Source: Maribacter sp. (GTDB lineage: Bacteria > Bacteroidota > Bacteroidia > Flavobacteriales > Flavobacteriaceae). From it: a stretch of DNA of 64,000 nucleotides. Below are positions 9,216 to 37,832 of this stretch, one piece after another. Positions within the stretch are counted from its first letter, which is position 1. Each line of letters opens with the position of its first letter. Below the pieces are notes generated by a model. The model was not told the DNA's origin, did not search any database, and worked only from the letters and a program-made list of their open reading frames with translations. The translations under genes and the position numbers were made by a program. Location of the stretch: NCBI GenBank assembly GCA_011050675.1, contig DRFI01000020.1, forward strand, positions 248,001 to 312,000, read 5' to 3'.

Positions 9216-11519
9216 TTATACCGTAATCAACTCATCTGGATACAATGATACTTTCTTTCCATTTACCCGAATAGATACTTCTTCAGTACCAATTAGCTGA
9301 AAAGTAGTATTCTCTGCCGTTACTTTTACTTTAATAATTCTATTTCTAAAATTGACTTTAAAAGAGTACGTCTTCCATTGATTTGGAATTTGAGGCTTAA
9401 AGGATAGTTTATCGTTTACAATACGCATACCTCCAAATCCTTCAACAATACTCATCCAAGTACCAGCCATAGAAGTAATATGCAGACCTTCTTCTACCTC
9501 TTTATTATAGTCATCCAAATCTAATCTAGAAGTTCTTAAGTAGAAATTATATGCCTGTTCCATTCTACCTAATTTTGCAGCCTGTATACTATGTACACAT
9601 GGCGACAACGAAGACTCATGAACTGTAAATGGTTCATAAAAATCGAAATGCCTTTCAAGATCTTCTGTTGAGAAATCTTCCTCAAAAAAGTAAAACCCTT
9701 GTAAAACATCTGCTTGCTTAATGTAAGGAGATCTTAAAATTCTATCCCAACTCCATTTTTGATTTATAGGCCTATCTGATTTTGGCAATTCACTAACCTT
9801 CACCAAATCTTTATCTAAAAAACCATCTTGTTGTAAAAACACGCCATGCTCCTTAGAATATGGCAAGTACATTTTAGTTGCTACTTTTTTCCATTTACCA
9901 CATTCTCTATCGGTAAGTTTTGTTTTACCAACAATTCTATGATAATCATCTGGATAGCCATTTTTAACTTTTTCTAATTGCGTAAGTGTATAGTTGATAC
10001 ACCATTTTGCCAAGTAATTAGTATACCAGTTATTATTGACATTGTTTTCATATTCGTTTGGTCCGGTTACCCCAAGCATCACGTATTTATTCTTGGCCTT
10101 TGATAAGTTTACACGTTGATGCCAAAATCTAGAAATACCAATTAAAACTTCTAATCCCATTTCTGGTATATAGCTATAATCTCCGGTGTACCTAAAATAA
10201 TTATGGATAGCAAAAGCTATAGCCCCGTTTCTATGAATTTCCTCAAAAGTAATTTCCCATTCGTTATGGCATTCTTCACCATTCATGGTCACCATTGGGT
10301 ACAATGCAGCACCATTAGAAAAGCCTAACTTTTTAGCATTCTCAATTGCTTTCTCTAAATGATTATAACGATATTTTAGTAGTTTTCTAGCAACCTTATC
10401 ATCTTTCGTTGCCATATAAAAAGGAATACAATAAGCTTCGGTATCCCAATAAGTACTACCTCCATACTTCTCACCTGTAAATCCTTTCGGGCCAATATTT
10501 AGTCTAGAATCCGTCCCTAAGTAGGTCTGATTTAATTGAAATATATTAAAACGTATTCCTTGTTGTGCTTTAATATCTCCCTTAATAACAATATCGCTCA
10601 TCTCCCAAATAGCTGCCCACGCAGCTATTTGCTTTTTTAATAAGTCTTTAAACCCTAGTTCACTTACTTCACTCAATCTAATATTGGCAACCTTCACCAA
10701 GTCATCGTTAGGATGATTTCTTGCAACCGTATACCCACCAAATTTTGTTAATGTAATAGATTCGTCGGCTTTTACATTTTGCTCAAACTTAAGCGAAACA
10801 ATAGTATCTGTCTTTTCAGCCGAGACACCTGAAACTTCTTTGCCTTCGTATGATACTAAAGCCTGCATGAATGTACAGGTCTTAAATTCTGTTTTCATGG
10901 TATGCGCCTCAATAAAGGCACGATTATTCTCTGAGCTTACGTTTGTTGTATTCCAGAATTTATCATCCCAGTTACTATCTTCATTTGTAATACCACTATC
11001 TAAATAAGGCTCAAAAATTATTGCAGCATCTGTATTTAATACCTTAATTGTATATGATATTGCACCAACCTCATCTATATCTAAACTTAAGAATCGTTTG
11101 ACAACCACCTCAATTTCAATGTTATTAGAAGTCACCGCATGAAAGCTACGTGTATAAACACCCTCTTTCATATTTAGTTCCCTTCTAAAACCAGAAACTT
11201 TTTTACTTTTCGCCAAATCAAATTCTACACCATCCACAAACACTTTAATGCCAATCCAATTAGGAGCATTCAAAACCTTTGCAAAATATTCTGGATATCC
11301 ATTTTTCCACCACCCTACTCGGGTTTTGTCTGGATAATAAACCCCGGCAATATAACTACCTTGAAAAGTTTTACCCGTATATGTTTCCTCAAAATTGGCA
11401 CGTTGCCCCATGGCACCATTACCGATGCTAAAAATACTTTCAGATGATTTAACATTATCACTGTCAAAACCTTCCTCAATAATGCACCACTTATCTGGTT
11501 TTATATAATCTTGATTCAT
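9216..11519 (-). CDS. GH65 glycoside phosphorylase, probably maltose phosphorylase
   Basis: A family GH65 (alpha/alpha)6-barrel enzyme of 767 aa that phosphorolyses alpha-glucosides. The acidic catalytic residue is E489 in VTGPNEYENN. An HGVFLQQDGF-type segment and the C-terminal beta-sandwich are present. Together with the adjacent beta-phosphoglucomutase gene the likely reaction is maltose plus phosphate to glucose plus beta-glucose-1-phosphate. Trehalose or kojibiose phosphorylase are family alternatives. There is no signal peptide. The gene is 52 nt downstream of pgmB, with a possible internal promoter in that gap. Confidence 0.92.
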   Translation of the reverse strand: MNQDYIKPDKWCIIEEGFDSDNVKSSESIFSIGNGAMGQRANFEETYTGKTFQGSYIAGVYYPDKTRVGWWKNGYPEYFAKVLNAPNWIGIKVFVDGVEFDLAKSKKVSGFRRELNMKEGVYTRSFHAVTSNNIEIEVVVKRFLSLDIDEVGAISYTIKVLNTDAAIIFEPYLDSGITNEDSNWDDKFWNTTNVSSENNRAFIEAHTMKTEFKTCTFMQALVSYEGKEVSGVSAEKTDTIVSLKFEQNVKADESITLTKFGGYTVARNHPNDDLVKVANIRLSEVSELGFKDLLKKQIAAWAAIWEMSDIVIKGDIKAQQGIRFNIFQLNQTYLGTDSRLNIGPKGFTGEKYGGSTYWDTEAYCIPFYMATKDDKVARKLLKYRYNHLEKAIENAKKLGFSNGAALYPMVTMNGEECHNEWEITFEEIHRNGAIAFAIHNYFRYTGDYSYIPEMGLEVLIGISRFWHQRVNLSKAKNKYVMLGVTGPNEYENNVNNNWYTNYLAKWCINYTLTQLEKVKNGYPDDYHRIVGKTKLTDRECGKWKKVATKMYLPYSKEHGVFLQQDGFLDKDLVKVSELPKSDRPINQKWSWDRILRSPYIKQADVLQGFYFFEEDFSTEDLERHFDFYEPFTVHESSLSPCVHSIQAAKLGRMEQAYNFYLRTSRLDLDDYNKEVEEGLHITSMAGTWMSIVEGFGGMRIVNDKLSFKPQIPNQWKTYSFKVNFRNRIIKVKVTAENTTFQLIGTEEVSIRVNGKKVSLYPDELITV

Positions 11520-11541
11520 TAAATTAAAATTGAGTTTAAAT

Positions 11542-11549
11542 CAAAAATA
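11542..11549 (-). promoter_or_regulatory. Candidate internal -7 box before the GH65 gene
   Basis: TATTTTTG on the minus strand matches TAnnTTTG and ends 22 nt before the ATG at 11519. No -33 TTG is seen at the right spacing, so this may be a weak internal promoter or chance in AT-rich DNA. Confidence 0.35.
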
Positions 11550-11571
11550 GAGCAACTATGGATAGGTACCC

Positions 11572-12243
11572 TTATTTATTTTCATGATTTTTATTAAGTA
11601 GTAATTCTAAAAAATCATCACTTATTTCAGTGAAATCTTTAAAATTATAATTCGCTTCGTTGAGTATTGTATCATCTCCAATACCTATACTAACCATATT
11701 CGCTGCATTCGCCGCTTGAATACCCGCAACCGCATCCTCGAAAACTACACATGAATTTGCTGCAATACCTAAATTACTAGCTGCAATTAAGAATACCTCC
11801 GGATCTGGTTTTGCTTTAGTTACACTATTACCATCTACAATACTATCAAAATAAGGCAGTAAATTAACCTTCTCTAATATTGGCTTGGCATTTTTACTCG
11901 CCGACCCCAATGCAATAGGTACATTCTTTTTCTTTAAATATTCTAACACCCTAGGCACGTCTGGCAGTATTTCACTTGCATCCATTTTCTCTATGTAGGC
12001 AAGGTAATCTACATTCTTCTCTACCATCCAAGTATCAAATTGTTTTTGTGTTGCCGTAATCCCTCCAATATCCAAAAGGATTTCTAAACATCGCTTTCTA
12101 CTAACTCCTTTAAACAATTCGTTTTGCTCCTTCGTAAATTCAAAACCTAATTCTTTAGCCAGCTTATGCCAAGCTAAATAATGATATTTGGCCGTATCAA
12201 CTATAACACCATCCAAGTCAAAAATAAATCCTACTTTTTCCAT
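11572..12243 (-). CDS. pgmB: Beta-phosphoglucomutase
   Basis: This HAD-superfamily enzyme converts beta-glucose-1-phosphate to glucose-6-phosphate. FDLDGVIVDT gives nucleophile D9 and acid/base D11. ALGSASKNAK (motif II/III region) and FEDAVAGIQAA (motif IV) are present. The length of 223 aa matches PgmB. ATG at 12243 is preferred over an in-frame GTG two codons upstream. Its partner is the adjacent GH65 phosphorylase; it also follows lacI by 12 nt, consistent with a maltose-utilisation operon. Confidence 0.93.
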   Translation of the reverse strand: MEKVGFIFDLDGVIVDTAKYHYLAWHKLAKELGFEFTKEQNELFKGVSRKRCLEILLDIGGITATQKQFDTWMVEKNVDYLAYIEKMDASEILPDVPRVLEYLKKKNVPIALGSASKNAKPILEKVNLLPYFDSIVDGNSVTKAKPDPEVFLIAASNLGIAANSCVVFEDAVAGIQAANAANMVSIGIGDDTILNEANYNFKDFTEISDDFLELLLNKNHENK

Positions 12244-12255
12244 TTTCACAAAATA

Positions 12256-13278
12256 TTAATTGATTGAGGAACCTCTTTTAATTAATGTAGCATCTATTAT
12301 TTCCGTTTTAAACGGCTCCTCAATTACTTCTACCGACTCCATTCTATTAATTAGAAGTTTTGCCGCTAACTCTCCCATTTTTTCTCCATGTTGCGCAATT
12401 GTACTTAGTTTAGGTGAAGAGTACCTAGACAAGATGCCATCTGTAAAGCCTATTATTGAAATATCATTGGGCACATTAAACCCTAAATATTGTACAACAC
12501 TCATACACTGTATGGCAAAAATCTCATTTACACATAATACGGCATCAATTTTATTTTCTTGGAAAAATTTAGTCATAAGACCTGTATTATCTATTTCATG
12601 AGGCAATGTCAAAATTAAATTCTGATCAATCTCAATATCATTCGACCTTAAGGCTTCAGTATATCCATTTCTTCTACTTTCACTTACATTAAAGTAATTC
12701 TCTGTAGTTATTAATGCTATTTTACTGCAACCAGTATTAACAAAATGATTAACTGCCTCATAGGCTATTTCTGCATCGTTCAATATCACCTTATCACATT
12801 CTATTTCATTTGTGACACGATCAAAAAGTACTATTGGTATTCCTTGATCCAACAACTCTTTTAAATGGGTAAAGTCATTTCTTCTTTGTGTTTCCGCACT
12901 TAATGAAAGTATAAAACCGTCTATACTCCCATTTGCGAGCATTTCCATGTTAATAACCTCCTTATCAAAAGATTCATCGGATATACAAACAATTACATTA
13001 TACCCCATTTGATTGGCATACTTTTCTATACCCCTAAAAACGGTTGTAAAAAAATGATGCACTATATCAGGTATAACAACACCTATATTCTTCGTTTTCT
13101 TATTTTTAAGACTTAGCGCTATATTATTTGGACGGTAGTTATAGAATTTGGCAAAAGCCTTTATTCTATCTTTTGTATCCTTACTAATCTCCTTGCTATT
13201 CTTTAAAGCTTTTGAGACGGTTGAAATAGAAACATCGAGTTCCCTAGCAATATCTTTTAAAGTGATTTTTGGTTTCAA
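12256..13278 (-). CDS. LacI-family transcriptional regulator of the maltose/alpha-glucan locus
   Basis: A LacI-family repressor of 340 aa. The N-terminal helix-turn-helix and hinge are clear (ITLKDIARELDVSISTVSKA, residues 5-24, then NYRPNNIALSLK). A periplasmic-binding-protein-like sensor follows (NIGVVIPDI onward). It is the first gene of the minus-strand maltose run and diverges from susC. A palindrome with a central CG in the intergenic region (13492-13507) is the likely operator. The inducer is probably maltose or a derivative (inferred from neighbours). Confidence 0.93.
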   Translation of the reverse strand: MKPKITLKDIARELDVSISTVSKALKNSKEISKDTKDRIKAFAKFYNYRPNNIALSLKNKKTKNIGVVIPDIVHHFFTTVFRGIEKYANQMGYNVIVCISDESFDKEVINMEMLANGSIDGFILSLSAETQRRNDFTHLKELLDQGIPIVLFDRVTNEIECDKVILNDAEIAYEAVNHFVNTGCSKIALITTENYFNVSESRRNGYTEALRSNDIEIDQNLILTLPHEIDNTGLMTKFFQENKIDAVLCVNEIFAIQCMSVVQYLGFNVPNDISIIGFTDGILSRYSSPKLSTIAQHGEKMGELAAKLLINRMESVEVIEEPFKTEIIDATLIKRGSSIN

Positions 13279-30485: not shown

Positions 30486-33400
30486 CTAGAAACCAAAACC
30501 TAGACCAAAAGTAAATCTTGGTCCGTCTTCACTGGCAAATATTGCCGTGTTAATGGAGATAATATCAGAAGCATTCAAAAAGAATCCTCCACCGTAAGAA
30601 GTATGCCAACGTCCAGAGCTCATTTCTGGATACCATACTTTACCATAATCAAATCCTCCAAAAAGACCCATTGCCATTGGTAATAATCTAGTGCGTTTCT
30701 TTTTTAAACTAAACCTAATATCTGTATTCTGGTAATATGATGTTTTCCCTGTAAATCGTTGATTTCTAAACCCACGAAGCCCATCTAAACCACCAATACT
30801 AGCGGCTTGATAAAATTCATAATCGTCGCCAATATTAAATTGTGCCTTCCATTTTGTAGCTAGTACTAATCGACCATTAGGAATTAGTTTATAATCAAAA
30901 CCTAGACTAGGTATTATATATCCAAAGTTACCGCTCTCTTTAGAAAGGTTCTCTTTAAACCCTACCTGCAGTGATGAAGACATCCCTAAAGTTGGGAAAG
31001 CTTCATTATCCTTATTCTCATAAGTATACGCAGCACTTACACCTACAAAATCGCTATTTGTTTCCTCTCCATTTTGCTGATAAAATGTATTTATAAATCT
31101 ATCATTGGTTTCCTCTACACTAATATTTTCATAAGAAACTCCAAGCTTTACTTTAGCTCCTAATTGCCCTCTCCAAACCAATGATGGAGAAAAATCTATT
31201 TGCCTAAGCTTAACCCTATTATAATCCAACTCTAAATCATTATCAAAATTTTCCGTATTGTTTCCAAAGCCGAAGAAGTTAACTGCAAAATTAGGACTTG
31301 TAAATCGTGCAGATAATTCAGCATTCCAATTCTCGAAAACATGTGCAAATTCGCCTTGATATTTAAAGTCAAAACCACTTGTTGCAAAATAATACGAAGC
31401 AGCAAAAGTGTGTTGTTGTGTAAAAGGGTTTTGCCTAAAGCCGTTATACGTATAGGTATTCATAAATCCTATTCTAACACCATCATCTGGATTAAACCCG
31501 ATAGTAGGAATTATTTGATTGTAACTATTTCTTAGTTTAAGCGGCTGGTAAGTGTTAAGCTCATAATCATCTGACAACTTTACTTTTGCCCCGCCCGTTT
31601 CTTCAAACGTATTTTTCTTACTCTTAAAATCATACAATGCTATATTTCTACCATCTTCTATTCTATAGATATCATTGTTATGCCCACCTATAATCCTAAC
31701 CTTGACCCCAGAAAAATTCGACGGATTTTTAACTTCAAAAATATCATCATCATCTAAACCAAAAACCCATAATTCTTTGGTGTCTTCTTTACTAAAGACT
31801 TTATAGTAAAATAATCTCTTCTTTTTATCGCCAATATTTCTGTAAACTTTTACTTCTGTTTCCGTATCGTTTAGTCTGTTTATTTCAAACCAATCATCTT
31901 TATCCGTACCGGCTACTACTGCATATTTATTTAAAATTTGATAATACTCATTAGCGGTTTCTTGTATATGACTTAAACGTGCCAATAGAATTTCTTTAAT
32001 CTCATCTACAGTTTCATCTCGCACTTCTTTTGGAAAAGATTTAAAAGCCTCATCAATATCACTTGGCTTTAAATTGTCCTGTAAGTACTTTGCTTGTGCC
32101 AACCATTGACTTTTTTCAGTTTCGCCCAATAAAGTGAGATCTAAAACATAAGTCATTGGCGATGAATTAAACCCTTTTACACTTCTAATTTCTTCGCTAA
32201 AACCTTCCATAAGTCTTAATCCTGGTATTATTCGCGTGGCTATATTCATTAGAGCACCATCTCCCATTTTAGAAAATACCTGGTCACGATCTCTTGGAAC
32301 GGGTCTATACATGGTTTTGTTTTTATCTTTAAATTCTGCCCAACGCCATTGATCAACATGCCTATCCCAATCACCAAGAATCATATCAAAAAGTCTTGCT
32401 CTTAAATAAAGATCTTTGTCTACTTCATATTGCTCATCGTCTCGCAAATCCTCAAGCATACTATCCGTACTCTTCAATTCATTTGAATATCCAAAACTTG
32501 CTAAATCGCCATGACCGTCGCCCGTATGCTCTTCAATCATATACAATTCATCTCCAAAAGTGTCATTAAACTCCTTTAAAGCAGGTTGTTTAGGCACATA
32601 ATATAGTACAGGGTTGGTATGGTAAATACTAACAGCATCAGATAATTTAGCAGTTGTAAACGGTCCATAAGGGTGAGAGCCTGTATAAAAATCCTGTAAC
32701 AACTCTTGTGTATAGGTCTCCTTTAAGTCATCAAGTACATATTGATCTTGAAAAGCCATGGATTGTAAATAAAGTTCAGCACTTTTTCTCAAAGCCCTCA
32801 TCACATATTCCCTTCCATCTTTTGCACGAAGTCTTAATGATTTAGATTGATGACCACCACCTTTTTTAACAGGTTCTAAGCCTCCCATTAATGAATCTAA
32901 GTTTACCGTAGGTACTTTTACCTCTGTGCCATAATACTTACGATAGCGCTCTCCCCAGACTCCTTTAAAAAATCCGCTTTTATCTATTTCCTTTTGAGAA
33001 TAAACCGATGCCTTTACACTATCAGGAAAAGTAGCTGTTAATTCACCTACATATTCTATTTGATTTGGTGGAAACACTTCATTGGTAAACAAAAATTCCT
33101 CACTTTTATCATCTCCAACTCCATAGAAACGCACCCTAGACGAACCATCTGTATATACTTCTAATGTAGCATACCCCATTTTACCCGTATTAAACTGAGA
33201 ACCGTTCAATAAACGTGTAAAACCTTTTTTTGATCCAGAACCGCTTACAATTTGTGGGGTGTTATTTTCAACCATGTATTGCAATGTATGCTCATGACCA
33301 GATGCAAAAACTACGCGATCAGAATATTGAGCCAGCGTAGTTACCCTATTCATTAATTCTCTATATCGCTTATTATTCACATCTTCTACAGATGCACCAG

Positions 33401-34196
33401 AAGTACTTCTTAGCACATTAATAAAAGTTCCTAAAACTGGCACAGGTGTAACCAATTCTTTAGGATAGAATTGTTTTCTTAACGAATACTGACCTCCGTG
33501 CTCACCATAACTATTTGTAGGGTGATGCATTGCAATTACAGTTGTACGATCACGATAGTCCTTTATAGCATCTTCGAGTTCCAAGAAAAACTTATCCCTA
33601 CTTTTAATCTCACACTTGTCATTAATATCTGGGCGTTTGTCCCAGTTGGTCAAATACCATTCTGAATCAATTGTAATAATAGCAACATCATCGCCTATTT
33701 CCACTACATCAATAGGGCATCCGTTTTCTGGCAAAAAAGGGTCCTTATGTTTTATAGCACTTTTGATGTAGTTTTCTTCACGTTCAAGTCCAATTAATCC
33801 TTCTGTATACCAATCATGATTACCAGGTATAAAAAGAGGTCTTCCCTTAAAATTATCTAACGTTTTTATTTGTGCATCTAAATGATTTTTTGCGGTTCTA
33901 TAGGCTACTGTAGAATCTTTTGGATCAGGTAATCCGGCAGGGTAAATATTATCCCCTAGAAAAATTGCAGTGCTATTCTTATCCGCATTATCCAATCTAT
34001 CCTTGAAAATTCTTAAAGCTGGGTTCATTCCTCCCATTGGTGAAAGACCTGCATCACCAATTAAATAAAATGTATGCGACACCTCTTTAGCATCATTTAC
34101 ATCAACGGCATATTTTTCATCAACATATTTAGTTTCATAGGTTGCACACCCTGTAATGAAAAGAAAAACCAATAGATAAGCGTAATATTTTTTCAT
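30486..34196 (-). CDS. Calcineurin-like phosphatase - CotH-like kinase region - beta-barrel fusion lipoprotein
   Basis: A 1236 aa exported protein; ATG at 34196 gives lipobox ITGC (C17). Residues about 40-310 form a calcineurin-like metallophosphatase with all motifs: GDAG (47-50), LGDN (80-83), GNHD (125-128), MHHP (223-226) and GHEH (300-303). A middle region (about 450-645) resembles CotH-type atypical kinases: a strand ending DGREYVMRALRK, YMIEEH (552-557), LGDWDRHVDQWRW (607-619) and PRDRDQVF (634-641). From about 885 to the end, repeated amphipathic strands and a terminal FGLGFGF indicate an Omp85/surface-antigen-like barrel. Phosphatase-barrel fusions occur in Bacteroidota; the kinase reading of the middle is my inference. 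The gene is convergent with the FG-GAP operon. Confidence 0.82.
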   Translation of the reverse strand: MKKYYAYLLVFLFITGCATYETKYVDEKYAVDVNDAKEVSHTFYLIGDAGLSPMGGMNPALRIFKDRLDNADKNSTAIFLGDNIYPAGLPDPKDSTVAYRTAKNHLDAQIKTLDNFKGRPLFIPGNHDWYTEGLIGLEREENYIKSAIKHKDPFLPENGCPIDVVEIGDDVAIITIDSEWYLTNWDKRPDINDKCEIKSRDKFFLELEDAIKDYRDRTTVIAMHHPTNSYGEHGGQYSLRKQFYPKELVTPVPVLGTFINVLRSTSGASVEDVNNKRYRELMNRVTTLAQYSDRVVFASGHEHTLQYMVENNTPQIVSGSGSKKGFTRLLNGSQFNTGKMGYATLEVYTDGSSRVRFYGVGDDKSEEFLFTNEVFPPNQIEYVGELTATFPDSVKASVYSQKEIDKSGFFKGVWGERYRKYYGTEVKVPTVNLDSLMGGLEPVKKGGGHQSKSLRLRAKDGREYVMRALRKSAELYLQSMAFQDQYVLDDLKETYTQELLQDFYTGSHPYGPFTTAKLSDAVSIYHTNPVLYYVPKQPALKEFNDTFGDELYMIEEHTGDGHGDLASFGYSNELKSTDSMLEDLRDDEQYEVDKDLYLRARLFDMILGDWDRHVDQWRWAEFKDKNKTMYRPVPRDRDQVFSKMGDGALMNIATRIIPGLRLMEGFSEEIRSVKGFNSSPMTYVLDLTLLGETEKSQWLAQAKYLQDNLKPSDIDEAFKSFPKEVRDETVDEIKEILLARLSHIQETANEYYQILNKYAVVAGTDKDDWFEINRLNDTETEVKVYRNIGDKKKRLFYYKVFSKEDTKELWVFGLDDDDIFEVKNPSNFSGVKVRIIGGHNNDIYRIEDGRNIALYDFKSKKNTFEETGGAKVKLSDDYELNTYQPLKLRNSYNQIIPTIGFNPDDGVRIGFMNTYTYNGFRQNPFTQQHTFAASYYFATSGFDFKYQGEFAHVFENWNAELSARFTSPNFAVNFFGFGNNTENFDNDLELDYNRVKLRQIDFSPSLVWRGQLGAKVKLGVSYENISVEETNDRFINTFYQQNGEETNSDFVGVSAAYTYENKDNEAFPTLGMSSSLQVGFKENLSKESGNFGYIIPSLGFDYKLIPNGRLVLATKWKAQFNIGDDYEFYQAASIGGLDGLRGFRNQRFTGKTSYYQNTDIRFSLKKKRTRLLPMAMGLFGGFDYGKVWYPEMSSGRWHTSYGGGFFLNASDIISINTAIFASEDGPRFTFGLGFGF

Positions 34197-34253
34197 AGCA
34201 CTATAACCCTCTTTAAATTTTCGTAATTTGGGAAATTCTAACAAAACTCTTCC

Positions 34254-35471
34254 ATGTCAAATATCTTAGAAAAGACACAACAATTTGCTGTAGACTTACT
34301 TACCAACCATTTGGATAAGAACTTCTTATACCACAATCTAAGACACACTCAACGAGTAGTCAAAAGTACTAAACAAATTTTGGATTCATGTTCTCTATCC
34401 AATGAAGATAAGGAGATATTGGAGCTTGTTGCCTGGCTACATGATACCGGCTATACAAAAGGCATTAAAGATCATGAAGAGCGTAGTTGTGATATAGCAG
34501 AAGAGTTTTTAGAAAAAGAAGGATATAATAAAGAGCGAATAGAAAAAGTTAAAACATGTATACTTGCCACCAAATGGAATGCAAAACCCACTAATTTGAT
34601 GGATGAGATTATACGCGATGCGGATTCTTCTCATTTTGCACAAAGCAGCTATTTAGAAACTTCAGATTTATTACGTGAGGAGCTAAAACTTCTTGGTATC
34701 AAAAAATATTCCTATAAAGAATGGTTAGATATCAATATTCAGGTTTTTAGAACCGACCACCAATATTACACAGATTACGCAAAGGAAAATTGGCTCGAGA
34801 AAAAAGATAAAAACTTAAGAAAACTTGTAAAGGATAAAAAGTCTGAAAAGAAACTTGCTAAGAAAGAGAAGTTAAAGGCTCAATTTAAAAGCGAGAGCCC
34901 TGATCGTGGTATACAGACGTTGTATCGTGTAACTCTAAAAAATCATATTACACTTAGTGATATTGCAGACACCAAAGCCAATATATTATTATCTGTAAAC
35001 GCTATTATTATATCATTAGCACTGTCTAATCTTATTCCAAAATTAGACAACCCGTCTAATGACTACCTTATTTACCCTACGGTAATATTTGTATTTTTTA
35101 GCGTAGTTTCTATGGTACTCGCTGTTTTAGCAACTAGACCAAATGTAACCAGTGGCGAATTCACTAAAGAGGATGTAAAGAACAAAAACGTAAATCTATT
35201 GTTCTTTGGTAATTTTCATAAAATGGCATTAAGCGATTATGAATGGGCTATACAAGAAATGCTTAAAGACAAAGATTATATATACACCTCATTAACGAAA
35301 GATCTTTATTTTCTTGGGATAGTTCTTAATAGAAAATACTCGTTACTTCGTTGGACTTATACCATATTTATGATTGGCATGATACTATCTGTTATAGCCT
35401 TTGCTGTTTCATTCAAATTCTTTGGACCTGATCGTAAAATAGAACTGTTAAGCCAAGTACTATTCCTTTAA
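34254..35471 (+). CDS. HD-domain protein fused to Pycsar-effector-like (PycTM/DUF5706) membrane domain
   Basis: A 405 aa protein. The N-terminal HD phosphohydrolase domain (about 1-180) shows H31 in YHNLRHTQRVV, H63-D64 in AWLHDTGYT and an acidic DADSSHF (122-128). A Lys-rich linker (about 180-212) leads to a PycTM-like domain: DIADTKANILLSVNAIIISL (236-255) with TM1, TM2 (272-294), a helical segment with NFHKMALSDYEWAI, and TM3 (366-388). PycTM proteins are effectors that respond to cCMP/cUMP in Pycsar phage defence. The HD part could hydrolyse a nucleotide. No cyclase gene lies nearby. The gene diverges from the phosphatase-barrel gene by 57 nt and overlaps the GAF gene end by 12 nt. Confidence 0.82.
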   Translation: MSNILEKTQQFAVDLLTNHLDKNFLYHNLRHTQRVVKSTKQILDSCSLSNEDKEILELVAWLHDTGYTKGIKDHEERSCDIAEEFLEKEGYNKERIEKVKTCILATKWNAKPTNLMDEIIRDADSSHFAQSSYLETSDLLREELKLLGIKKYSYKEWLDINIQVFRTDHQYYTDYAKENWLEKKDKNLRKLVKDKKSEKKLAKKEKLKAQFKSESPDRGIQTLYRVTLKNHITLSDIADTKANILLSVNAIIISLALSNLIPKLDNPSNDYLIYPTVIFVFFSVVSMVLAVLATRPNVTSGEFTKEDVKNKNVNLLFFGNFHKMALSDYEWAIQEMLKDKDYIYTSLTKDLYFLGIVLNRKYSLLRWTYTIFMIGMILSVIAFAVSFKFFGPDRKIELLSQVLFL

Positions 35472-37832
35472 AGCATCCATTAAATCTTGGTAAGTATATG
35501 TCTTTTCAGGTTCTTGCTCTCTTTTATAAAGTATTTCTGCTCGAATTGCTTTTAAACCAGACACACCCTGTAAGCCTTCTAATTCAACAATTTCAACCTT
35601 GTCGGTAAAACAGCCCTTAGATTTTAGAAACTTAATATATCTTAGGTATTCTAGCTCATCTTTTTTCTGAGAATATACAATTGAAAGCACCCCTTTTTCA
35701 GTTAAACGCTGATTAGTACCTTTTATGTAAGATTTATCTATTCTCTTTTTAATAACCTCGTAACGTGCATTATAGGTGCCATCAACATCAAACTGTTTTT
35801 CATCCATTCTAAAACGAATAGATAGAGATGTATTATACACCAATATTAAGGATGCCACATCTAATGGTACCGGTAATTTTGGTTTCAACGAATAATGAGC
35901 ATTCTCCATTTCGCACATTACTTGTAATTGCCACAACCTTAAATTATTAAGATACAAAGGGTTATACTCCTTATTTTCTGAGATTGAAGAACCAATATAC
36001 ATGTTGTGTTCTACACCATCTGTTTTATAACGCTCATAAAAATGCGGATACATAGCTTGTGCGCTTTCTTGTCTTTTATCAATAATTGCCGAAACTTTTT
36101 TATTGATCAAGGTTACACTTTCATCGTAATTCTTTCTATGATCATAATACGAACCTGTGCCCATATCAATTTTAGACTCATATTTTAAGATATGCTTCTC
36201 AATATCTTTGTCGAACTTTTTAAGATGCTCAAAAACCGGAGAAATCTCATCGTTTACAAAATCGAAAATTGCTTGTTCGCTATTGGTGTAAAGAGTCTCT
36301 TTAATACTTTCTAGGTGGTTATTGACTCTAAAAACCAACTCCTCATAGATAGGCAGTTCCCACTTTTTAAATGCAATATTCAGCACATTATCAATTTCAG
36401 ATAGCTGAATCATTAAATCTCGTTGTATGGCTAAATTTCTAGCTTGCGAAGAATCTTTGATATCTATTTGCCCAAATAATGGAAACACATCTTTGAAAAC
36501 GATTTCCTTGAACGAAGGAGATCTTCCTTCGGTTTCATCAAGAATGAATTTTTTAGCTTCCTCTTGAAATTTCCAATATACCGATGAGTGAACAGATGTA
36601 CACTCATTCTGTATAATAGCGTCTATCCTGTTGTTTTCTTCATTCTTAGTACGTACAACCGCCGAAACTATAAATGGCATTACATCATCAAGCTTTTGCG
36701 CATTTACACCGTTAAGAACTCCTTTCTTTTCAGAAACAATTTCTAATACTCCTAAAAGATTATTTTCGAAAGCTATTGGTGCAAAAATGGCACTTTGCAC
36801 TCCTTGCTCCTTTAAGCCCTTAAATGGTTGCATGTTGCCAGATTGTTCCACTTTAAGGTCTATATCTGCTATAGTATAATATGAATTATCACTAATTAAT
36901 TTATCATAAGAATCTTCACACAGCGCACTTTTGCAATTCATATGATGCTCTCCTCTTAAAAGAAAACTTTCGAAGCCCATACCAGCTACCTCCTCAAATT
37001 GATCTTTCTTACCATCAAAAGAGGCAAAACCAACTTTAATATTCGGTAACCTAAAAAATGACTTGAAGGTTTCTTGCAAATCATGCATAAATTTAGCAGG
37101 TTGCAAAGTATCCTTAGAAATCAATTTCGATTTAATATTTGAAATTGCCTGTTCCATGGTAACATCAAACAAATTGGCAATTACAAAACCTTTACTAATA
37201 AAACTTTCTGGTGGAATTTTTTCTATCCAAAGCGTGGCATCAGTAGGATTTGCTAAAAGTTCATCTACATCTTCTTGTGTAATCTCTTTTGCCTTATTGG
37301 TAGGTATAATATCAATAAAATCGGCATTATATAAAATACGGTAATGACGCATTACACCGGCTGCATCTGGAATATCATAAAAATAAGGACGACTAAAATC
37401 TAACTGGTAACCGTAGTAATAATTTAAGATAACCACACAGCTCATAATATAATCCATCTCGTCACCAAGATTCCGCAATTCTGGCTCGTAATTCTCACCC
37501 GCTTCGCTAATTATATTTTGAAACCGTTTAGAAGATTTAATAATGGTATTTTGAAAAGGAAGCGTTGCTACCTTTATCTCATTTCCACTTAATGCTTCTG
37601 TAAACGTATCTTGTAAAATACGCTCGATCAAATCTTTATTTTTCTCTAATAAACTGAAATCGGAAAAACCGTCACGCAACTCTGGAAAACCCTTTTCAAC
37701 CGCTAAAATCCGCTCTGCAGTAGCCGCTAAAAAAGGATTGTCACCTTTCAAATGTTCATCATACTTCTGTAGAAGTTTTTCAAAACTTATAAGGTGCTTA
37801 ACCGGCATTTTCATTCTATCGTGCTTTCCCAT
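35460..37832 (-). CDS. Large GAF-domain protein of unknown function
   Basis: A 790 aa cytoplasmic protein without signal or membrane segments. A GAF-like domain at about 240-400 is suggested by KVGFASFDG, IFAPIAFENNLLGVLEIVSEKKGVL and FIVSAVVRT. The N-terminal 230 residues and C-terminal 390 residues are rich in helices and not recognised; residues about 480-600 may be coiled coil. There is no histidine kinase, GGDEF or HTH domain, so it is not a standard signalling output protein. It converges on and overlaps the HD-PycTM gene by 12 nt and diverges from the LpxH-like gene. The start at 37832 is uncertain; another ATG lies six codons later. Confidence 0.7.
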   Translation of the reverse strand: MGKHDRMKMPVKHLISFEKLLQKYDEHLKGDNPFLAATAERILAVEKGFPELRDGFSDFSLLEKNKDLIERILQDTFTEALSGNEIKVATLPFQNTIIKSSKRFQNIISEAGENYEPELRNLGDEMDYIMSCVVILNYYYGYQLDFSRPYFYDIPDAAGVMRHYRILYNADFIDIIPTNKAKEITQEDVDELLANPTDATLWIEKIPPESFISKGFVIANLFDVTMEQAISNIKSKLISKDTLQPAKFMHDLQETFKSFFRLPNIKVGFASFDGKKDQFEEVAGMGFESFLLRGEHHMNCKSALCEDSYDKLISDNSYYTIADIDLKVEQSGNMQPFKGLKEQGVQSAIFAPIAFENNLLGVLEIVSEKKGVLNGVNAQKLDDVMPFIVSAVVRTKNEENNRIDAIIQNECTSVHSSVYWKFQEEAKKFILDETEGRSPSFKEIVFKDVFPLFGQIDIKDSSQARNLAIQRDLMIQLSEIDNVLNIAFKKWELPIYEELVFRVNNHLESIKETLYTNSEQAIFDFVNDEISPVFEHLKKFDKDIEKHILKYESKIDMGTGSYYDHRKNYDESVTLINKKVSAIIDKRQESAQAMYPHFYERYKTDGVEHNMYIGSSISENKEYNPLYLNNLRLWQLQVMCEMENAHYSLKPKLPVPLDVASLILVYNTSLSIRFRMDEKQFDVDGTYNARYEVIKKRIDKSYIKGTNQRLTEKGVLSIVYSQKKDELEYLRYIKFLKSKGCFTDKVEIVELEGLQGVSGLKAIRAEILYKREQEPEKTYTYQDLMDALKE

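Follow-up and report, generated by a model that had tools for sequence, protein, structure and literature searches.

The 64,000-nucleotide window analyzed here, from contig DRFI01000020.1 of a Maribacter sp. genome, carries on its minus strand a gene (30486-34196) for a 1236 aa lipoprotein composed of a phosphatase, a kinase-like domain, a beta linker, and an Omp85-type barrel; coordinates of its parts are all given on that strand. The reading starts with the ATG at 34196, chosen over a TTG at 34244 because the lipobox comes after the ATG. Its sequence opens with a signal peptide (34146-34196) whose lipobox, ITGC, ends in Cys17, and by a simple rule devised for this analysis a lipoprotein-like N-terminus is present in 39 of 55 proteins with the same three parts (phosphatase, middle domain, and barrel), which we call tripartite. 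The initial annotation of this DNA had read the same 1236 aa frame, and that frame and all the motifs quoted for it are in the sequence. Divergent from the gene lies a plus-strand gene (34254-35471) for a 405 aa HD-domain and PycTM membrane protein, recognized by Pfam and by neighborhood counts.

The two outer modules are as the initial annotation had described them, an intact calcineurin-like phosphatase before the kinase-like region and an Omp85-like barrel after it. The metallophosphatase domain (residues 38-385; 33042-34085) is of the purple-acid or TRAP-like type: residues 42-240 match the calcineurin-like phosphoesterase family PF00149 at 28.6 bits (cut-off 21.5), the closest protein by sequence is human TRAP (2bq8, E 5.6e-4 over the whole sequence, no individual stretch being significant), and Foldseek matches the fold to GAP50 at 2.6e-9. 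Its motifs GDAG, GDNIY, GNHD, HH, and GHEH supply a complete set of metal ligands, D48, D82, N126, H127, H225, H301, and H303. The barrel (residues 892-1236; 30489-31523), which includes an LRGFR stretch, matches PF01103 Omp85 over residues 960-1194 at 24.8 bits (cut-off 24); a ShlB match within it falls under the Pfam cut-off, and it is the only part of the protein that NCBIfam matched, also under the cut-off. In an AlphaFold2 model covering residues 40-1236 (pLDDT 86.0, pTM 0.82), the all-beta linker is followed by a barrel of 16 long strands, which resembles BamA (3.5e-12) and TamA (1.7e-11) by Foldseek. The linker (residues 758-874; 31575-31925) is defined by the secondary structure of the models and is perhaps a small beta solenoid; acidic stretches, GLDDDD and GGHNND, lie among its short strands.

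Between these modules, the initial annotation had placed a kinase-like region at 32274-32846. Its motifs DGREYVMRALRK, YMIEEH, LGDWDRHVDQWRW, and PRDRDQVF do occur in that order within residues 451-641, and the region is kinase-like, but the domain is larger, spanning residues of about 405-757 (31926-32984) in the AlphaFold2 model, the Foldseek comparison with the PDB, and the family alignment. No Pfam or NCBIfam model matches this domain, and a PDB search with the whole protein as a single sequence found nothing. A model of residues 385-900 built from 80 aligned sequences (mean pLDDT 88.1, pTM 0.88) gave a protein-kinase-like fold with two lobes, not an unrelated one. Its best PDB matches are CtkA (3akk, 1.8e-5), HipA (4pu3, 2.0e-5), and CotH (5jd9, 1.6e-4), and the 10 matches at E<=0.001 are all kinases or kinase-fold proteins (CtkA, HipA, CotH, ADCK3/COQ8A, PI4KIIalpha, and Rio2). 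Among the 50 matches listed, 48 are kinases or kinase-fold proteins by title or by their known nature, and the other two are pre-40S particle chains; Fam20 proteins enter at rank 15 (best E 2.7e-3). The resemblance in the model is distant, the ten best matches having TM-scores of 0.17-0.30 by query length and 0.21-0.49 by target length, all below 0.5, with rmsd values of 8-17.

On sequence alone, the kinship is weak. Against CotH the family profile scores 36.4 (E 0.001), the best of 60 column shuffles being 20.6, and both Asp motifs fall in register. Against HipA the score is 24.9 (E 0.023), close both to the best shuffle (23.0) and to an unrelated control, alignment A1 against the phosphatase (24.3), so kinship with HipA is not established by sequence; against PDB sequences CtkA ranks first, at E 0.1. 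The GDWDRH stretch aligns with the catalytic loop in the CotH, HipA, and CtkA comparisons. PRDRD is the second Asp motif in the CotH alignment and lies one residue off in the ungapped CtkA alignment. It could be supposed that short motifs resemble kinases here by chance, as the missing Pfam and NCBIfam matches, the weak sequence-only scores, and the TM-scores below 0.5 would allow; a high-confidence model whose ten significant matches all have a kinase fold, together with a CotH profile alignment that keeps the motifs in register, makes this very improbable.

The initial annotation had called the domain CotH-type. That label is too narrow: the fold is kinase-like and CotH is the best match by profile, but Pfam does not recognize the domain as CotH, and CtkA and HipA lead the fold matches. 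Membership in known families was rejected in each case: CotH (PF08757) misses the 1236 aa protein and reaches E 0.014 at best among 44 family sequences; HipA_C (PF07804) misses it and is absent from the 25 of 35 families listed for the 44 sequences, any others being weaker than E 0.17; and Fam20C (PF06702) misses it and matches one of the 44, at E 0.05. A Fam20C search of the genomes gave no match, with the controls likewise silent. No single one of the 44 sequences has a significant match to a Pfam kinase family. Judged by the model and the profiles, the middle domain is kinase-like and forms a family of its own rather than CotH proper, a new family of known fold in an undescribed architecture.

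The residues expected of a kinase site are conserved. Across the 44-sequence alignment, which includes the 1236 aa protein, D604, R612, W617, and G647 are invariant, which sets the motifs apart from chance, and G446, G447, R467, K471, E555, R601, D609, W610, D611, Q616, W619, P634, and D638 occur in at least 90% of the sequences, a list from which H613 and D636 are absent. Several of these residues lie in a Gly-rich stretch, GGGHQS (residues 446-451; 32844-32861), and in a strand, YVMRALRK (464-471, with R467 and K471; 32784-32807), both defined by alignment and residue counts and the strand also by the model; in the catalytic-loop-like GDWDRHVDQW (608-617, with D611, R612, H613, and Q616; 32346-32375), in register with CotH, HipA, and CtkA; and in a DFG-equivalent, PRDRDQVF (634-641, with D636 and D638; 32274-32297), in register with CotH. 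Residues were counted on 92 proteins selected without reference to any motif. A separate set of 80 loci, the top 80 among 594 confirmed relatives, was drawn with a DWDR-containing pattern; it was left out of these counts and enters the alignments for both AlphaFold2 models and the survey of HD/PycTM direction and distance. D611, R612, and D636 are all intact in 78 of the 92 (53 of 55 tripartite, 16 of 26 kinase and barrel, and 9 of 11 lone proteins), so the conservation of acidic residues among homologues that the initial annotation proposed to check is borne out. The losses accordingly fall on 10 of 26, two of 11, and two of 55 proteins in the kinase and barrel, lone, and tripartite builds. 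In two lone proteins (L220:10469-12148 and L222:7436-8623), Ser replaces Asp611 in the loop DWSRR.

The phosphatase site varies as well. All seven ligand positions are complete in the 1236 aa protein and in 46 of the 55 tripartite rows. The remaining nine comprise one truncated reading (L259) and eight of 54 complete relatives in which two to seven positions have changed. Two of these eight, L251 and L252, are also the tripartite exceptions at the kinase site, where the loop reads DFGKHEDNW; the other six (L002, L003, L004, L034, L257, and L258) combine an altered phosphatase site with a kept kinase site, and among these six constraint is stronger on the kinase site than on the phosphatase site. 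L002, L003, and L004 are paralogues encoded in the same Maribacter sp. genome, so that among its four tripartite proteins both sites are complete in the 1236 aa protein only, where, from the sequence, both look complete. That the kinase site stays intact on account of the fused phosphatase was considered and rejected, given the nine of 11 lone proteins with intact sites and the six proteins with altered phosphatase sites.

These patterns bear on whether the domain is catalytic. From its fold and site conservation we regard it as a likely catalytic domain, a reading weakened by the odd Arg467 and Gln616, by the altered members, and by a presumed lack of periplasmic ATP. Kinases usually hold metal through an Asn in the catalytic loop and bind nucleotide through a Lys in strand beta-3, and free ATP is presumably scarce in the periplasm. 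Here, the beta-3 Lys position is apparently occupied by Arg467, with Lys471 four residues further on and both conserved. Residue 616 is Gln in 84 of 92 proteins and Asn in L251, L252, and one lone protein, as would be expected if Gln616 is a metal ligand. The same oddities and the same presumed scarcity of ATP would suit a pseudokinase, a kinase-fold sensor or scaffold that would bind a nucleotide or some phosphorylated ligand and regulate either the phosphatase or the barrel, as would the altered sites in 10 of 26 kinase and barrel proteins. One of these altered copies (L208, 7476-10112) stands in tandem with an intact one (10126-12687), an arrangement that recalls pseudokinase-kinase pairs such as Fam20A-Fam20C. 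We nevertheless consider this reading unlikely: almost every tripartite or lone protein retains D611, R612, D636, D638, and K471, and the six relatives with altered phosphatase sites preserve a kinase site that would be needless in a mere regulator of the phosphatase.

The kinase-like domain is a widespread family in Bacteroidota that recurs in other gene arrangements. Of 198 genomes sampled across the phylum, 71 contain a match to the middle region, and five matches in plasmid records all come from Bacteroidota. Among the 92 proteins, profiles made in this analysis assign 55 to phosphatase, middle, and barrel, 26 to middle and barrel, and 11 to the middle domain alone. On a tree of the 92 domains, in which several branches are long and their placement unsure, the three build labels need at least eight changes and the tripartite build does not come out as a single group in any of 200 bootstrap trees, from which we conclude that architectures changed repeatedly. 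Natural gene splits occur as well. In two genomes of one genus (G055, locus L221; G250, locus L280), the kinase-like domain, phosphatase, and barrel are encoded by three adjacent co-directional genes with 6-17 bases from stop to next start, and the first two genes each carry a lipobox. In G211 (L283), a phosphatase gene directly precedes a kinase and barrel gene, with 32 bases between them, and at the lone-kinase locus L222 a phosphatase gene lies about 6 kb away. With the same profile, no phosphatase gene was found in the stretches around 25 kinase and barrel genes of L197-L219 or around the further ones examined, which speaks against such pairing as a general feature.

The lipid anchor and the barrel together place the kinase-like domain outside the cytosol. 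The barrel might export both the phosphatase and the kinase-like domain to the cell surface, as in the patatin Omp85 protein PlpD, a reading that is compatible with either a kinase or a pseudokinase. The lack of POTRA domains is consistent with this, and the analogy to PlpD has been drawn for the 'Metallo' Omp85 subfamily (PMC4104836). A lipid at the N-terminus followed by an Omp85 barrel at the C-terminus would instead favor the periplasmic side, and in the split operons the kinase-like protein and the phosphatase each have a lipobox of their own, which makes surface export rather doubtful.

Kinase-domain genes are linked to genes of the HD/PycTM type. The membrane half of the divergent neighbor matches PF18967 at 5.2e-38 and the PADLOC PycTM profile at 3e-20. 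Searching the same 198 genomes, and counting matches to E 9.1e-23, we found such a gene within 12 kb of 53 of the 92 kinase-domain genes and within 5 kb of 42, where about 0.7 would be expected under uniform placement in 4 Mb genomes. By build, the 12 kb counts are 44 of 55 tripartite, eight of 26 kinase and barrel, and one of 11 lone genes. The Maribacter genome has an HD/PycTM gene within 12 kb of four of its five kinase-domain genes, three of them directly adjacent. Direction and distance to the kinase-domain gene vary, and the association may be partly old shared gene order. Another HD and PycTM gene near a kinase-domain gene is L227:7381-8598. In an alignment of 65 full-length HD/PycTM rows, 50 of them taken from the loci drawn with the DWDR pattern, the HD residues H27, H31, H63, D64, D122, and D124 are conserved in no fewer than 64.

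A number of other neighbors are worth recording. Beside the HD/PycTM gene, 35460-37832 encodes a 790 aa protein that matched nothing in Pfam, NCBIfam, or PADLOC within the limits applied and whose relatives lie near the same genes in related genomes. CotH-type genes lie about 1-2 kb from kinase and barrel genes at L202:12090-13205 and L204:6502-7629 (by profile, and by Pfam for L202), and the Maribacter genome has a separate Pfam-positive CotH gene besides the kinase-like gene. On three Hymenobacter plasmids (L294, L295, and L296), the kinase-domain gene adjoins an RND efflux operon. No antitoxin family, such as the HipB partner of HipA, appears among that part of the neighbors of kinase-domain genes that Pfam names.

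We slightly favor the explanation that the domain is a phosphotransferase working outside the cytosol and paired with a phosphatase; its activity, residue roles, periplasmic side, and reversibility are what we infer from the comparisons above. The kinase-like domain and the purple-acid-type phosphatase would be tethered at the outer membrane by the N-terminal lipid and the C-terminal BamA/TamA-like barrel, and the former would transfer phosphate, or else a nucleotide, onto a substrate in the envelope. In its favor count the kinase-fold matches, the CotH profile alignment, the kept site residues, the adjacent genes of G055, G250, and G211, and the six relatives whose kinase site persists beside an altered phosphatase site. 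D611 may serve as the catalytic base, D636 and Q616 may hold metal, and K471 or R467 may hold the nucleotide. In the 1236 aa protein, the fused phosphatase would reverse the reaction or reset the enzyme, and in paralogues with an altered phosphatase site the kinase would act unopposed. The initial annotation had suggested that opposing kinase and phosphatase activities reside in one protein, and the sequence of the 1236 aa protein would accommodate this.

Overlapping with this explanation is the notion that the kinase fold here serves a different reaction or a different target, for example the transfer of AMP, as by the kinase-fold protein SelO, or the phosphorylation not of a protein but of a lipid, isoprenoid, or glycan. 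The fold matches include PI4KIIalpha and ADCK3/COQ8A, and some copies have genes for lipid or isoprenoid phosphatases nearby, namely a PAP2 or undecaprenyl-diphosphate phosphatase on the three Hymenobacter plasmids and an APP1-type phosphatidate phosphatase gene (L220:4684-5808) near three lone kinase-domain genes. These cases are few and not independent, two of the plasmids (L295 and L296) sharing an identical protein accession, and the site has nothing that separates protein from lipid kinases. This alternative is possible, on the less probable side.

The phosphotransferase explanation, if correct, would have several consequences. With an extracytosolic kinase family present in 71 of the 198 genomes sampled, one would have to ask what donates the phosphate and whether the envelope has a phosphoproteome, and the 'Metallo' Omp85 proteins would need to be described anew. 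Far more speculatively, and as a whole rather doubtful, the new extracytosolic kinase family, the phosphatase, and the Omp85-type barrel, whether fused or in an operon, could constitute an envelope phospho-signaling module across the phylum Bacteroidota that is coupled to the inner-membrane HD/PycTM protein. Such a module would tie phosphorylation at the outer membrane to a nucleotide-sensing system of the inner one. The split operons and the paralogues with altered phosphatase sites offer ready-made tests of what each part does.

Our findings fit alongside several known systems. The PF00149 domain, Omp85 barrel, and lack of POTRA domains in the 1236 aa protein are the features of the 'Metallo' subfamily, in which Heinz and Lithgow listed POTRA-less Omp85 proteins with PF00149 in 2014 and termed the PF00149 domain a metalloprotease (PMC4104836). 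The main text of that article contains no word starting with kinase or phosphatase, and on that basis the domain between PF00149 and the barrel appears undescribed there. The initial annotation knew of no description of the triple combination, and among the papers listed in a search of the literature that excludes most subscription journals, likewise none describes a kinase domain in phosphatase-Omp85 proteins. The phosphatase shares its motifs with purple acid phosphatase/TRAP (ACP5) and differs in its fusion to two further domains and in the altered sites of eight of 54 relatives.

Fam20C also works outside the cytosol and is among the fold matches from rank 15 on, and the near absence of a Pfam match sets our family apart from it. 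HipA and CtkA (PF07804) give the best fold matches, with an aligned D-x-H loop and, by eye, a G-x-Q stretch in the N-lobe; unlike them, the kinase-like protein bears a signal peptide, is fused to a phosphatase and a barrel, and has Gln for Asn in the loop. The predicted atypical kinases of the Lani_1194 family, found partly in Flavobacteriales, likewise have Arg for the usual Lys, yet 94% of them carry a methyltransferase domain, and by this fusion, as they are described, they look different from our family (PMC9758233). The HD/PycTM neighbor shares its membrane half with the Pycsar effector PycTM and differs by its fused HD domain; a standard Pycsar system was rejected for it, since PADLOC matched none of ten neighboring genes and did not match the 790 aa protein, so that no pyrimidine cyclase was seen among them. 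CotH (PF08757) remains the best match by profile, with both Asp motifs in register. In Bacillus subtilis CotH, Asp228 and Asp251 are required for activity (PMC7821199), and their spacing of 23 compares with one of 25 between the corresponding Asp residues of the kinase-like domain.
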